From assembly GCF_903915725.1 (NCBI RefSeq), contig NZ_CAIWTY010000012.1:1-64000 (forward strand): a stretch of DNA of 64,000 nucleotides, given 5' to 3'. This document shows, piece by piece, positions 25,969 through 33,551 of this stretch. Each line of letters opens with the position of its first letter. The stretch's first letter is position 1. The position numbers were made by a program, and so were the translations under genes. The DNA comes from an uncultured Rhodopila sp. (lineage in GTDB: Bacteria; Pseudomonadota; Alphaproteobacteria; Acetobacterales; Acetobacteraceae). Under the pieces are notes generated by a model, which worked only from the letters and a program-made list of their open reading frames with translations, made no database searches and was not told the origin of the DNA.

Positions 25969-27438
<1,470 letters not shown>

Positions 27439-27441
27439 GCC

Positions 27442-27843
27442 ATGGCGGTCTCGCTGGAGATCGTCAGTCCGGAGAAGCTGCTGCTGTCCCGCCCGGTGGA
27501 CATGGTGGTGATCCCGGGGGCCGAGGGCGATATCGGTGTGCTGGAAGGCCACACGCCGATGATCGTTACTCTGCGCGGCGGCACGATCGATCTGTACGAG
27601 GGCGACAAGATCGTCGAGCAGTTGTTCGTCCATGGCGGGTTCGCCGAGGTGACGCCGGAGCGGTGCACGGTTCTGGCGAACAAGGCGGTGCCGCTGGGCG
27701 AGGTGAAGAAGGCTGAGGGCGAGAAGCTGCTGGCTGAGGCTGAGGCGGGTTACGAGGCTGCTGATAAGTCGAATACAGCGATTGAGGATGAGGCGCTGGA
27801 TCTGATCCAGTTGGCCCGGTCGATGATTGATCTGGGGCACTGA
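27442..27843 (+). CDS. atpC: F1F0 ATP synthase subunit epsilon
   Basis: LEIVSPEKLLLSRPVDMVVIPGAEGDIGVLEGHTPMIVTLRGG. Confidence 0.98.
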   Translation: MAVSLEIVSPEKLLLSRPVDMVVIPGAEGDIGVLEGHTPMIVTLRGGTIDLYEGDKIVEQLFVHGGFAEVTPERCTVLANKAVPLGEVKKAEGEKLLAEAEAGYEAADKSNTAIEDEALDLIQLARSMIDLGH

Positions 27844-27875
27844 GGGGTTTTCGGATTTTATGGTTGGGTTGAAAG

Positions 27876-27901
27876 GCCGGGCGGATAGCCCGGCTTTTTT
27901 T
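27876..27901 (+). terminator. Intrinsic terminator of the atp operon
   Basis: GCCGGGC-GGATA-GCCCGGC followed by TTTTTTT. Confidence 0.93.
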
Positions 27902-27976
27902 GGACCGCCCGGGTTGCGATTTTAGCAACGTCGCCACTCTGCCAATCTCAGCGGGAAGCTAGGTTGGCGCTGACCG

Positions 27977-27998
27977 TGCGACAGAGGTGCCTGTCGCA
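27977..27998. promoter_or_regulatory. Perfect 8-bp inverted repeat (candidate operator or RNA hairpin) upstream of the HEPN/KGGVGR cassette
   Basis: TGCGACAG-AGGTGC-CTGTCGCA, ending 16 bp before the ATG at 28015. Confidence 0.5.
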
Positions 27999-28014
27999 GG
28001 CTTAATCGCTCGCG

Positions 28015-28524
28015 ATGAGCGACCCCCACAAATCCCCGGACTGTCAGGCCGTCTACGAGACAGTTGCAGACTCAGCGCTTAATTGGCACCTTAGCGTTGA
28101 ACTGCGCCGGGCGGATAGTAGGGTGTCGCAAGGGTTTAATACCACATATCGAGCGGCTGCCCGCAGGCATCAGGAAGCTGCCGAAATCCTATACCAAGGA
28201 CCCAGACAAGACGTGGCCGGGTATCTTTATGGGCTAGCCGCAGAATGCGGTATTAAGGCGCTGATGCTCGATCTCGGTATGAGGCCAGCGGTGGATGGGC
28301 GTAGGAGTGACGACCCCTTCTATGCCCACTTCAGGCAGCTTAGAACGATGCTTCGCGACAACGCCTCAGCGCGGAAGCACACGGATCTGAGGAAGTTTAC
28401 CGAAGATGAGCGCTTTATGGAGCACTGGGACGTGGCTATGCGGTACTCCGATGGTAAGGACATTCTGAAAGCATGGGTTGAGGCGTGGCGCGACAACGCA
28501 AAAGACGTGATGGCAGAAATTTAG
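28015..28524 (+). CDS. HEPN-superfamily-like protein, first gene of the three-gene cassette
   Basis: RAAARRHQEAAEILYQGPRQDVAGYLYGLAAECGIKALM matches the HEPN helix pair pattern (RhxxAexLl...YLaGyAvECaLKa). Confidence 0.6.
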   Translation: MSDPHKSPDCQAVYETVADSALNWHLSVELRRADSRVSQGFNTTYRAAARRHQEAAEILYQGPRQDVAGYLYGLAAECGIKALMLDLGMRPAVDGRRSDDPFYAHFRQLRTMLRDNASARKHTDLRKFTEDERFMEHWDVAMRYSDGKDILKAWVEAWRDNAKDVMAEI

Positions 28525-28532
28525 GGGGCACG

Positions 28533-29876
28533 ATGACGGTACGCTTCGACGACAGTCTTCCTGCCCTCGTTGCCCTGGTGGAGGCGGAATTCGGCGCATC
28601 CGTCTTGGACACCGCGGTCTTTGTGCGTGACGCGACCGGCTACTTGTCCGTTGTCGTGGCCGACGAGGTTGAAGAGGACAAGCTTGCCGAACTCAATAAG
28701 AAGGCGGCCACAAGCCTAGGCGGCTACGCGCGAAGTGAGGACTGTGTGAGAGACCGGCGCGGACCGGGTTCTATCCGCTTATTAAGCGCCGCTTCGTCGC
28801 TAAGCCGGGTCGGCGTTAGCTGCCGAAAGGTCCTTTTCGTTGACCGCCGAATGGTCGGTGCCGATTGGCTTCTGCCGCCGAGGGCGGGAAGTAGCATACC
28901 GCGCATCGCGTTTGTCAGCGTGAAAGGTGGCGTCGGGCGATCTACCGCGCTCGCCGTGATGGCAGCTCACTTGTCCGCACGTGGACTCCGCGTGCTCGCG
29001 ATCGATCTGGATCTCGAGGCACCCGGCATTGGTACCATGCTCATCAGCCCGGATGCGATGCCGAAGTACGGCACCCTCGACTATCTTGTCGAGAACGGTA
29101 TCTCTGGGATTGACGAAGATTTCATGGAGAACACCAAGGGATGGTCCTTTCTCGGAGCCGGAGGGGCCCAAGTCATGGTTCTGCCGGCTTTTGGTAGTGA
29201 GACAATTGCGCACCCGGCTGGTGGTCTCGCGAAGATCGCCCGCGCCTACCTTGAAGACGTTCAGCTCGGCGGAGAGTCGTTATCCCTCACCGAACAGATT
29301 CGGGAAATGATCGAACGGTTTGAAGCAACCGGAGCCCACGATGTGGTCCTTGTTGATGGACGAGCGGGACTGCATGAAACAACTGCTGCGGTCATTCTCG
29401 GTCTCGGAGCCGAGACACTGTTCTTCGGCATAGATGAGCCGCAAACGTTCATCGGCTACAGCCTTCTCTTCTCCCATCTCGCGTCGCGTCAAGGCGTCGA
29501 TTACGAGAACTGGAAACAGCGCATCCAGTTCGTGCATGCCAAGGCGTCAGCCGATCTTCAATCGCAGGTGGAGGCAGCGGCGAGATTCAACGACCTAATG
29601 ACGGTACTTCGTCCCGAGCGCGAACAGAACGTCGACGAGGAGATCCCACTGACCGCTGACGACTTCGACTTGGGGTGGACAACAACCAATGAGGACGTTG
29701 TCGCCGAGATCGTCGGCGACGAAGCTCCCATCATACGTATCCTTGATGATGACCGCTATCACGCATTCGATCCGGTGCGGCAGCCCGCTTTACTTACGTC
29801 AGATCTGTTCAAAGCAACGTTTGCGGATCTGCTGCGCTGGGCAGACGCAGTGGCAGGATTAGACGATCAGACATGA
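28533..29876 (+). CDS. MinD/ParA-like P-loop ATPase with variant Walker A (KGGVGRST)
   Basis: RIAFVSVKGGVGRSTALAVMAAHLSARGLRVLAIDLDLEAPGIGTML ... DVVLVDGRAGLHETTAAVILGLGAETLFFGIDEPQTF; ~110-aa N-terminal domain. Confidence 0.85.
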   Translation: MTVRFDDSLPALVALVEAEFGASVLDTAVFVRDATGYLSVVVADEVEEDKLAELNKKAATSLGGYARSEDCVRDRRGPGSIRLLSAASSLSRVGVSCRKVLFVDRRMVGADWLLPPRAGSSIPRIAFVSVKGGVGRSTALAVMAAHLSARGLRVLAIDLDLEAPGIGTMLISPDAMPKYGTLDYLVENGISGIDEDFMENTKGWSFLGAGGAQVMVLPAFGSETIAHPAGGLAKIARAYLEDVQLGGESLSLTEQIREMIERFEATGAHDVVLVDGRAGLHETTAAVILGLGAETLFFGIDEPQTFIGYSLLFSHLASRQGVDYENWKQRIQFVHAKASADLQSQVEAAARFNDLMTVLRPEREQNVDEEIPLTADDFDLGWTTTNEDVVAEIVGDEAPIIRILDDDRYHAFDPVRQPALLTSDLFKATFADLLRWADAVAGLDDQT

Positions 29877-31339
29877 ACGCAATCGCGGAGCACTTCGCTG
29901 GGATACGAGCGGGACTGGCTAGCCTCGATGCGAGCGCGTCATCGACTGCCAGCGGCGCCGATCGGCCGCATCCTGAAGATATATTCGCACCCGCGCAACA
30001 CGTCGGCGCGCTTGATCCGAACACAACGATCGTGCTTGGGGCTCGGGGGGCCGGGAAAAGCTTTTGGGCCGGCGTTCTCGCTCACACTGACACTCGTGAG
30101 ATCGCAGCTCGCGCGTATCCCCAGATCGGGCTCGGGCGCATAGACGTTGCGCTCGGCTATACCGGCCAGGAGGGTGACCGATCGATCAGCCGCGCGACAA
30201 TCGACGCTCGAGTACCGTCCGGCGCCGAAACCGCCCAAGGCGTACTTCTGTGGCGTTGCGTTCTACTTCGGGCGGTTCGCGGGGTGATCTACCCCGATCG
30301 GCCATTGGAGCGCGTCGGGGCAATGATGACGCAATATGCCGATCCCGAGGATTGGGAGGAAGCTATGGATGAGGCCGACGCGATTCTACGCGCACGCGAT
30401 CTGCTGGTTGTCGTTTTGTTCGACGCTCTCGATAGTCTTTCAATTGAGTGGGCGCGCCTACGCGACCTCACAGATGCGCTGCTGCAAGTCGCCTGGGGCG
30501 TTCGCGGCTACAAGTCCATTCGAATGAAGCTTTTTCTGCGCCCCGACCAAATGCAGGACCTTGGGTTACGATTCATTGAGCTCCCCAAGCTGATATCCGG
30601 AGCCACCGAGCTGAGTTGGAGTGCAATCAATCTCTACGGGATGCTTTTCTCGCGCCTGGCAACATGCAACGCTCCTACTGCACGGGAGGGTTTGAACTGG
30701 GTTTTAGACAAATGTTCGTTGCCACGCCCTCCGGCCAATCTAATTGAGCTTCGCCGATGGCGCCTGTCCGTAAATCGCAAGGCACAGGCCCAAGCTTTCG
30801 AGCTAATTGCCGGCCTCCATATGGGCCGTGGTAGTAAAAGGGGACGGACGTACGATTGGCCGATCAACCATCTGGCCGATGGGCATGGCGTAGTTACCCC
30901 TCGTAGTTTTCTAGTACTTATGCAGTCAGCGGCAACGATGCCTCCCGCGTCAGAAAATCAGGCTATAACCGCTGAGGGAATTCGAAACGGACTTCGCGAT
31001 GCGTCAAAGGTAAGGCTTGAGCAGCTCGCTACTGAATACAAATGGATCAAGAGGGTCCTCCTGCCGCTTGCGCGATTGCAAGTTCCCTGCCAGGAATCAG
31101 TAATTATCCAGCGGTGGCAAGAAAACGAAACGGTGGAGGCTGTACTCCGAGGTGCCCAAGAGCGGCAACTCCTCCCTCCAATCGATGGAAATAGAGACGA
31201 AAGAGCCGACCATAAGTTGGTGATTCGGCTACTCCGGATGGGTGTGCTGAGCCTACGCAGTGACGGTAGATATGATATGCCGGACCTTTTCCGTGTCGCG
31301 GCGCGTCTTTTGAAGAAAGGAGGCGTCGCGCCGGTTTGA
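29873..31339 (+). CDS. Large P-loop NTPase, third gene of the cassette
   Basis: TIVLGARGAGKSFWAGVL Walker A; LLVVVLFDALDSL Walker B-like; start overlaps upstream stop as ATGA. Confidence 0.8.
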   Translation: MNAIAEHFAGIRAGLASLDASASSTASGADRPHPEDIFAPAQHVGALDPNTTIVLGARGAGKSFWAGVLAHTDTREIAARAYPQIGLGRIDVALGYTGQEGDRSISRATIDARVPSGAETAQGVLLWRCVLLRAVRGVIYPDRPLERVGAMMTQYADPEDWEEAMDEADAILRARDLLVVVLFDALDSLSIEWARLRDLTDALLQVAWGVRGYKSIRMKLFLRPDQMQDLGLRFIELPKLISGATELSWSAINLYGMLFSRLATCNAPTAREGLNWVLDKCSLPRPPANLIELRRWRLSVNRKAQAQAFELIAGLHMGRGSKRGRTYDWPINHLADGHGVVTPRSFLVLMQSAATMPPASENQAITAEGIRNGLRDASKVRLEQLATEYKWIKRVLLPLARLQVPCQESVIIQRWQENETVEAVLRGAQERQLLPPIDGNRDERADHKLVIRLLRMGVLSLRSDGRYDMPDLFRVAARLLKKGGVAPV

Positions 31340-31464
31340 CTATGTTATATTTTGGCATAATCGGTATCGAATCGTTTCTGACTTTGAGGACTGGCTCAAA
31401 ACTCATTACGCTTCTACGGTGTCGCCGCACCTGATGGCCATTCCGAATCGGACTTGCCGCGAAG

Positions 31465-32137
31465 CTAGGAAAACAACGCCCGGACCGCCGACCGGCCCTG
31501 ATCGGAAATCTGCAACCCGTCCCGTTCGCAATGCGCCAGCCCCTGACGGATAAAACTCAGCGGCTGGTCCCCGTGCGAGATCATGGCCCGGACCTTCCGC
31601 GAAAACCAAGTATCTCCCCGCCCCCCTGCATTCGCACCGCCCCATCCCAAAGGCGCGAAAAGCCCCGCCAATCGCGCGGCAATCGCGCCCGCGGCCATCC
31701 AACCCGTCTCGCCGTCATCCCAGCAGGCGCAACATCGGGAAGACCAACTCCCGCTCGGAGATACCCGGTTCCCCTTCCCTGGCGTAGCGAGGCCGCGGAG
31801 TTACCCGGGCCAGCACGTCCACCGCTTCAAGCTTCCCCGCACCGAAGTTGCTCGCGAAGCCGGCCGTCGGTTCGATAAAATACTCCCGCTTCACCATGTC
31901 CACCTCCAGCCCGAGCAGGAACCGGAAGATATCAACGGCCCCCGGTCCCATCGGCCACGAAAGGGCACCGTACGGGTCCTCGGGCGGCACTCCGCCGATC
32001 TTCAGGGCCAGGGTGTCGAGGAACAAAGGGATCGGCAGGTCCAGGTCCGACTCTTCGGTCGCGCAGTCATACGTCGTGACGCTATGCTCGATCCGGGCGG
32101 CAGCCGGCAGTGTCTTGACCTTCAGCGGAACGATCAT
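31465..32137 (-). pseudogene. Hypothetical protein gene interrupted by a single-base frameshift
   Basis: MIVPLKVKTLPAAARIEHS...GISERELVFPMLRLLG-stop continues in the adjacent frame as DDGETGWMAAGAIAARLAGLFAPLGWG...AVRALFS. Confidence 0.75.
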
Positions 32138-32530
32138 GGCGTCACCCTACGCCGGGGACCGGCCAGTCTCAATCGTTCCGCCGCCGTAGGAGCAAAAGCG
32201 CCAAGCGGTGTCTCCCCCGCAAGGGGCGCGTCATCTGCCCCTCCCTGCCGAAACCAATAACCGTGCCAAATCAGCCCATCGCCATTACCTCATGAGGTAC
32301 CGTCATCGCTCAGGCCCCCTCCCCCATGGACATCACCAAAGATATCCAGCCGATTTCAACGGGCTTGAGAAGACGGTTCCAAGCCTCTGCATCCCGGGTC
32401 GCATCCGCCGTCTCGATCGCCGCTTCCGCCACCTGTCCCGCGGCATCGGCCCCGCGGCATTCATCGCCGACTGGCAAGGTTCTTGCTCACACCAATGGAT
32501 GAAACCATTTCCCGGGATAGGAGCCAAATA

Positions 32531-32875
32531 ATGATCGACATCACCGAGCACGCAAGCCAAACCCTGCTGGCCGTCATGGCAAGGACCGACAAACCGGCGG
32601 CAGGGTTGCGCATCACAGCCGAACCGAAGGGCGACTCAGGGCTGAGCTATTCCCTGGGTCTGGTGAGCGAGGGCCTGTCGACAGACCATGTAATCACCAC
32701 TCCCGGCGGAATTACCTTGTTCGTGGCCAAGGATTCGCTGACCCATCTGATCGGCGCCACGCTGGACTATCAGGAAACCGAAAGCGGTCATGCGTTTAAA
32801 TTTCTGAACCCGCATGATTGCCCCTCCGCCCGGTCCGAGAGTTGTGAGTGCGGCACAGGGTCATGCTCGGCGTAA
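32531..32875 (+). CDS. HesB/IscA-like A-type Fe-S protein, divergent
   Basis: MIDITEHASQTLLAVMARTDKPAAGLRITAEPKGDSGLSYSLGL...CECGTGSCSA. Confidence 0.85.
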   Translation: MIDITEHASQTLLAVMARTDKPAAGLRITAEPKGDSGLSYSLGLVSEGLSTDHVITTPGGITLFVAKDSLTHLIGATLDYQETESGHAFKFLNPHDCPSARSESCECGTGSCSA

Positions 32876-33170
32876 TGCAAAAAAGTTCGGATGCGTAAAT
32901 TCGTCCTTGGCAAAGTACCCGCCTGTATATTGAGCGACGCGCAATGCTGAACGGCTGCGGGCGAAGGCCTCCGGTTGACGATCTCAAGACCGGTCGCGTC
33001 CGGCCGGCCAGCGCGGTCGTTGATGAACTCCGCGCTGACCATGGCATCCCGCCCTGACCTGACGGAGCGGGCAGATCGAAACCTCCGTGCCACGGCAATG
33101 GTCCCCCTGGACCCCCTGACAACGCATCGTACAAAGTCCAATATTGACGGTGTGGACAAGGAGATCTGCT

Positions 33171-33551
33171 ATGGAAGACCTAGAGATTCGAGCCGCTCTT
33201 GATCGCCACTGGGCCGCCTCCGATGCAAACGACTTCGAGGCCGAGCACCGGATCTACCAAGAGGATGCGGTGCTCGAATATCCGCAATCGGGTGAACGCA
33301 TCCGCGGGCGGCAGCATATTCAGCTCTCCCGCACCGCGCAGCCGAACCGGAAACGTTTCACCGTGCGGCGGATCACCGGCGCGGGCGACCTCTGGGTGAC
33401 CGAATACGTCATAACCTATGACGGGCAGCCGTCCTACACCGTCAGCATCATGGAGTTTCGCGACGGCAAGGTGGCCCGCGAGACCCAGTATTTCGGCGAT
33501 CCGTTCGCACCCGGTCCGTCCCGTGCGCAGTGGGTCGAGCGGATGCCCTGA
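33171..33551 (+). CDS. SnoaL/NTF2-like family protein
   Basis: IRAALDRHWAASDANDFEAEHRIYQEDAVLEYPQSGERIRGRQHI...EFRDGKVARETQYFGDPF. Confidence 0.88.
   Translation: MEDLEIRAALDRHWAASDANDFEAEHRIYQEDAVLEYPQSGERIRGRQHIQLSRTAQPNRKRFTVRRITGAGDLWVTEYVITYDGQPSYTVSIMEFRDGKVARETQYFGDPFAPGPSRAQWVERMP

Follow-up and report, generated by a model that had tools for sequence, protein, structure and literature searches.

A mobile three-gene cassette of a HEPN-like protein and ParA-like and ORC/Cdc6-like ATPases in Rhodopila matches the PDC-M28 defence-candidate family

Results

Gene organization and composition

In the 64-kb window, that is, the whole stretch of Rhodopila DNA analysed here, three intact and co-directional genes, which we call A, B and C, lie between atpC, which ends at 27843, and a broken gene on the minus strand (Table 1). 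Genes A and B are separated by an 8-nt gap, and B and C share an ATGA overlap. This arrangement had been described from the sequence alone, for the same span (28015-31339), and the KGGVGR, DLDLEAPG and GARGAGKS motifs reported in that sequence-only reading are all present. The broken gene, just 3' of the trio and outside it (31406-32137, minus strand), looks frameshifted, with its two pieces at 31406-31702 and 31715-32137.

Table 1 Features of the A-B-C trio, with positions in the window.
Feature	Position	Strand	Basis
Gene A, 133-aa HEPN protein (PDC-M28A)	28123..28524	+	PADLOC PDLC04558, weak PF05168, shared GTG
A, E41-x3-K45 motif of the HEPN fold	28243..28257	+	invariant 31/31
A, H69 in helix 2-3 insert, candidate alternative catalytic His	28327..28329	+	invariant 31/31
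A, R107-Y108, without the His of canonical Rx4-6H	28441..28446	+	R 31/31
Gene B, 447 aa, N-terminal domain and ParA/MinD-type SIMIBI ATPase of the KGGVGR family (PDC-M28B)	28533..29876	+	NF047398, PDLC04559, AF2/Foldseek
B, deviant Walker A KGGVGR (K131 retained as signature Lys, R136 at the position of the P-loop Lys)	28923..28940	+	invariant
B, switch I DLDLEAPG	29004..29027	+	D158, D160, E162, P164, G165 invariant
B, Walker B/switch II DGRAG (family D-x-R-x-G)	29355..29369	+	D275, R277, G279 invariant
Gene C, 488-aa ORC/Cdc6-like AAA+ (STAND-type) ATPase (PDC-M28C)	29873..31339	+	PDLC04561, AF2/Foldseek
C, Walker A GARGAGKS	30038..30061	+	G56, G59, G61, K62 invariant in 24/24
C, Walker B VVVLFDALD	30407..30433	+	D184 invariant, D187 nearly invariant

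The open frame of gene A reaches up to an ATG at 28015 (28015-28524, 169 aa). Its homology starts at GTG 28123 in common with the three closest relatives (the GTG is shared with loci L028 and L010), and the sequence 5' of this codon looks unrelated between the window and its closest relatives. Since homology begins there, GTG 28123 is probably the true start, giving a protein of 133 rather than 169 aa.

The trio has a GC content of 58.0%, and its GC3 of 0.59-0.64 compares with 0.85-0.89 in atpA, atpG and atpD. Of all 3.2-kb stretches in the 64-kb window, the one with the lowest GC (57.6%) begins near position 28,200, within the trio. The 50-55% estimated earlier from sample lines was slightly too low. 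Compared with the 77%-identical copy in genome G023, dN is 0.14-0.16, and dS reaches 1.5 in B, with saturation in A and C; all three genes are under strong purifying selection. A promoter and terminator scan of the trio gave nothing beyond shuffled controls, and an Rfam scan of 27400-33200 returned no RNA family over its threshold.

Assignment to PDC-M28

All three proteins match the gene set catalogued as PDC-M28 in PADLOC-DB 2.0, over nearly the full length of the three models. The scores are E ~7.8e-31 to 2e-30 for A against PDC-M28A (PDLC04558), which also matched all 31 A relatives; E=1.9e-82 for B against PDC-M28B (PDLC04559; residues 1-440 of 447); and E=2.9e-114 for C against PDC-M28C (PDLC04561; residues 10-487 of 488). 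The components are adjacent in one operon-like run, and we found no feature that speaks against membership. Judged by these profiles, the trio is a member of this catalogued defence-candidate family and not an undescribed combination. The sequence-only reading had known of no function for the trio; that much holds, as our literature search found no paper describing or functionally characterizing PDC-M28 and no mention of PDC-M28, KGGVGR or Sll1717, but the gene set itself was already on record. The family is an unvalidated candidate. According to a 2026 paper (PMC12988326), PDCs (phage/putative defence candidates) come from the 'guilt-by-embedding' survey of Payne et al. (2024 preprint) and most of them are unvalidated. 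A 2026 BREX survey mentions standalone HEPN effectors, and searches of its text found no mention of the A-B-C trio. The tripartite, CARD-NLR-like LypABC system was also considered and ruled out, as it consists of different proteins.

Features of the three proteins

That the first gene is HEPN-like, as proposed, remains probable, with a revised start. The window protein alone matches PF05168 weakly (E=0.02-0.05, below cut-off); relatives do better, with 7/31 family members matched and a best E of 5e-5. AbiV comes second among the Pfam families with matches to A proteins, and the MAE_18760 family gave no match among the 31 at E 0.1. A PDB sequence search with the A profile returned chance matches only. 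Across the alignment of 31 relatives, R15, E41, K45, H69, R107 and Y108 are invariant. The canonical Rx4-6H motif is not found: the arginine is invariant, and a histidine at R+5 to R+7 occurs in only 2 of the 31. Because this RNase motif is absent, reading 'HEPN' as 'RNase toxin' would be unsafe. In HEPN proteins of the HEPN-T AF0298-like and AbiV groups, the histidine of Rx4-6H is lost and another lies in the insert between helices 2 and 3, where it may form an alternative active site (PMC3710099). The combination of R107 and H69, both present in 31/31 and placed on the helices by alignment only, follows this pattern, and A fits an AF0298/AbiV-type HEPN with a putative alternative histidine. 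In the Mesorhizobium locus L010 (~6600), a stop codon in frame ends A roughly twelve codons short of where members of the family usually end.

Gene B was rightly read as encoding a MinD/ParA-like protein of an annotated KGGVGR family: it scores 168.6 bits (E=1.9e-49) against AAA_KGGVGR (NF047398; cut-off 90), and the Foldseek neighbours of the ATPase in its AlphaFold2 model (pLDDT 81.5) are FleN, Soj and ParA. A further conserved domain, distinct from the ATPase, takes up the first ~110 residues of B. Both K131 and R136 are invariant in 20/20 and 14/14 relatives. From what is generally known of P-loop NTPases, an arginine in place of the P-loop lysine suggests nucleotide binding with slow or no hydrolysis, and ATPase activity may be absent. 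KGGVGR-type ATPase domains also occur outside the trio in many frames of 600-1500 aa in the same genera, possibly as parts of other conflict proteins.

Gene C, earlier described as a P-loop NTPase of ~490 aa, encodes an AAA+ protein with invariant Walker A residues (Table 1). Its AlphaFold2 model has a pLDDT of 89.1 and a pTM of 0.87, and the best folds in Foldseek are archaeal ORC2 and Cdc6/Orc1, followed by BrxC of BREX, with RdrA ranking lower. Because the TM-scores are modest (0.3-0.4), they support the fold class and not close kinship. C shares its fold type with the ORC-Cdc6-type STAND ATPases BrxC and DUF499, and differs from BrxC in being short (488 aa) and only weakly similar (12% identity, TM about 0.3). 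It matches the Sll1717 ATPase family (NF047389) only partially, scoring 52.7 bits where the cut-off is 75, and by this profile test it is not a member. A PDB sequence search with the C profile gave chance matches only, and Foldseek of C against viral structures gave nothing under E 0.001.

Co-inheritance, distribution and mobility

The three genes travel together. In a set of 60 loci assembled from C only, 54 hold all of A-B-C in this one order, the genes overlapping or standing a short gap apart, and the objection raised earlier, that the homologues might rarely co-occur, fails. Of the six incomplete loci, L029 and L032 are truncated where their contigs end, and L020 and L026, both Streptomyces plasmids, have only C. 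On the latter two, the C homologues are 26-28% identical, and no A or B was detected beside them. Conversely, all 19 full-length PDC-M28B matches in 399 phylum genomes adjoin C matches. The trees of the three genes vary together: Mantel r between their distance matrices is 0.79/0.89/0.79, and permutations reached at most 0.16. One genome (L140) encodes B and C as one fused frame of 930 aa. A distant 910-aa frame, B-like and then C-like (L133; G503:C111:136576-138732), hints at a wider B-C fusion family.

The distribution is patchy, which answers the second objection, namely that the trio might be fixed in core genomes. C is present in 8/59 close relatives, all of the genus of the window, in 6/385 genomes of the class and in 21/399 genomes of the phylum, two of these 21 matches being weak or partial. 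Copies within the genus range from 77% down to ~30% identity and are scattered over the C tree, where the nearest kin of the window copy beyond G023 are found on a Mesorhizobium chromosome, in the alphaproteobacterial genome G069, on an Agrobacterium plasmid and in prophages. In G023, the trio and the atp genes lie on different contigs. G006 is a close relative with 94% in the flank; there, homology stops at the end of atpC and resumes at window position 33087, so that 1.2 kb of unrelated DNA without the trio stands where the window has 5.2 kb.

C was found in 20 plasmid records, and all 13 IMG/VR prophage contigs carry the complete trio, whose neighbours there include genes for integrase, repressor and terminase; several trios adjoin a tyrosine recombinase or integrase. 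There was no C match in INPHARED phages, and the Enterobacter C gene had no match at the DNA level in complete E. coli genomes. The patchiness within the genus, the scattered C tree, the plasmids, prophages and integrases, and the absence from the G006 atp locus show that the trio is a horizontally acquired, mobile cassette, passed as a unit among bacteria, plasmids and prophages.

Close relatives carry quite different genes 3' of atpC (window 27844-33087, L072 15024-16197, L071 9000-15700), among them, in G024, efflux/regulator genes and, judged by eye, PIN-domain toxin-like ORFs, and this stretch looks like an insertion hot spot. In Mesorhizobium (L010 5980-6065) and one prophage (L085 1690-1763), the trio is preceded, at a distance of ~170-290 bp, by tRNA-Leu and tRNA-Cys genes. 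Direct repeats of the att type were sought around the trio of Mesorhizobium, and all matches were of chance length.

Immune-related contexts and fusions

The trio is embedded in a BREX-2 operon in Candidatus Thiodictyon pTs417 and on a Sphaerotilus plasmid; in both, it stands between pglX and pglY-like/pglZ, co-directional and closely spaced. Most trios lie outside BREX loci: the core genes brxC, pglX and pglZ are found only around L022 and L025, and not beside the window trio in its ORF list, and BREX accounts for 2/12 annotated plasmid contexts. A TIR protein gene adjoins the trio on an Enterobacter asburiae plasmid, and a type III restriction gene is near it in Calothrix.

In one other genus (g341, loci L135-L139), five C genes read on without a stop into a calcineurin-like metallophosphatase (PF00149, E 1e-11 to 1e-16) and a NACHT domain (PF05729, E 1e-6 to 1e-9), with intact metallophosphatase core motifs and an intact Walker A in the NACHT domain. 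The same domain pair makes up DS-8, for which phage protection was shown and both domains are essential (PMC13092281). DS-8 acts alone, and the fusion is not seen in the window. We found no earlier report of PDC-M28C fused to metallophosphatase-NACHT. In L154, TPR repeats follow C in a shifted frame. Most copies have no extra effector.

Neighbours of the chromosomal copies of relatives are mostly housekeeping genes, and many copies stand alone between such genes, with those of Tistrella and Skermanella in metabolic contexts. A scan of chromosomal neighbours, made without a control set, found few defence matches, including PDC-S13, PDC-S05, a type I specificity subunit and an AriA-like protein, and none of ten chosen neighbour proteins matched in a PADLOC scan. 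Enrichment in defence islands is modest, and the trio is no consistent resident of them.

Discussion

The earlier proposal of a mobile candidate defence cassette built from a HEPN protein, a KGGVGR ATPase and a P-loop NTPase is supported by these data. We regard a defence role as likely, based on the BREX-2 embedding, the TIR and restriction-modification neighbours, the metallophosphatase-NACHT fusion, the resemblance of C to BrxC and RdrA, and carriage by prophages. The fuller picture of a mobile anti-phage or anti-mobile-element PDC-M28 system, in which a HEPN effector is gated by the B and C ATPases, is our preferred reading, and we give it an even chance; the defence role, the complex, the identity of the sensor and the RNase activity of A are each inferred. 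In such a mechanism, C would bind or assemble on an infection-linked ligand, which we guess to be DNA or a replication intermediate, and switch state with ATP. The ParA-like B, with its invariant P-loop arginine, could act as a slow nucleotide-locked switch or an adaptor between C and A. The HEPN effector A would be inactive in the resting complex and freed or activated on infection; active A would cleave or block RNA, leaving the infected cell dormant or dead, as in abortive infection.

A is also the subject of a doubtful variant of the defence reading, in which it would serve as a non-catalytic nucleic-acid-binding or adaptor subunit while damage is done by the B-C complex or by partners such as the fused metallophosphatase-NACHT. 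The loss of Rx4-6H (H in 2/31) and the varying additions to C (metallophosphatase-NACHT in L135-L139, TPR in L154) would fit this role, but the invariance of R15, E41, K45, H69 and R107 in 31 diverged sequences seems to exceed the needs of binding only, and most copies lack an extra effector to do the damage.

It is rather unlikely that the trio is instead a stability/addiction or partition module that keeps plasmids and prophages, with a HEPN toxin (A), a ParA/Soj-type antitoxin (B) and a maintenance or replication function (C). Its presence on plasmids and prophages and the ParA-like and ORC-like folds of B and C are in line with such a module, as is the precedent of the MAE_18760-type pairs, where a HEPN gene likewise stands beside a ParA/Soj-like ATPase and which were postulated as toxin-antitoxin in 2013 (Anantharaman et al., PMC3710099). 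The trio differs from that dyad by a PF05168/AbiV-like A without Rx4-6H and without a MAE_18760 HEPN match, by its third gene and by the KGGVGR P-loop, and its chromosomal single-site copies, BREX-2 placement and metallophosphatase-NACHT fusion fit defence better. The toxin-antitoxin and defence roles are compatible and not exclusive. Very improbable is an accessory stress- or transcription-regulation cassette, mobile by chance and outside immunity: the many copies alone among housekeeping genes and the metabolic contexts in Tistrella and Skermanella would suit it, but the position within BREX-2 operons, the carriage by prophages, the immune-type fusions, the listing as a PADLOC candidate and the rapid horizontal turnover sit poorly with this reading.

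For PDC-M28, otherwise only a catalogue entry as far as we found, the composition and spread of a co-evolving cassette are new, and the C fusion links the family to the architecture of a validated immune protein. If the trio is defensive, its ParA-like and ORC-like ATPases would jointly form an infection switch, a combination that to our knowledge has not been described. As a speculation that we think unlikely in its full extent, the trio might be a portable immune switch that acts alone through an alternative-active-site HEPN or is plugged into BREX-2 or a metallophosphatase-NACHT NLR-like protein, with a new form of control by an arginine-P-loop SIMIBI dimer and an ORC-like ATPase. The key residues singled out by the analysis are H69 and R107 of A, R136 of B and K62 of C.
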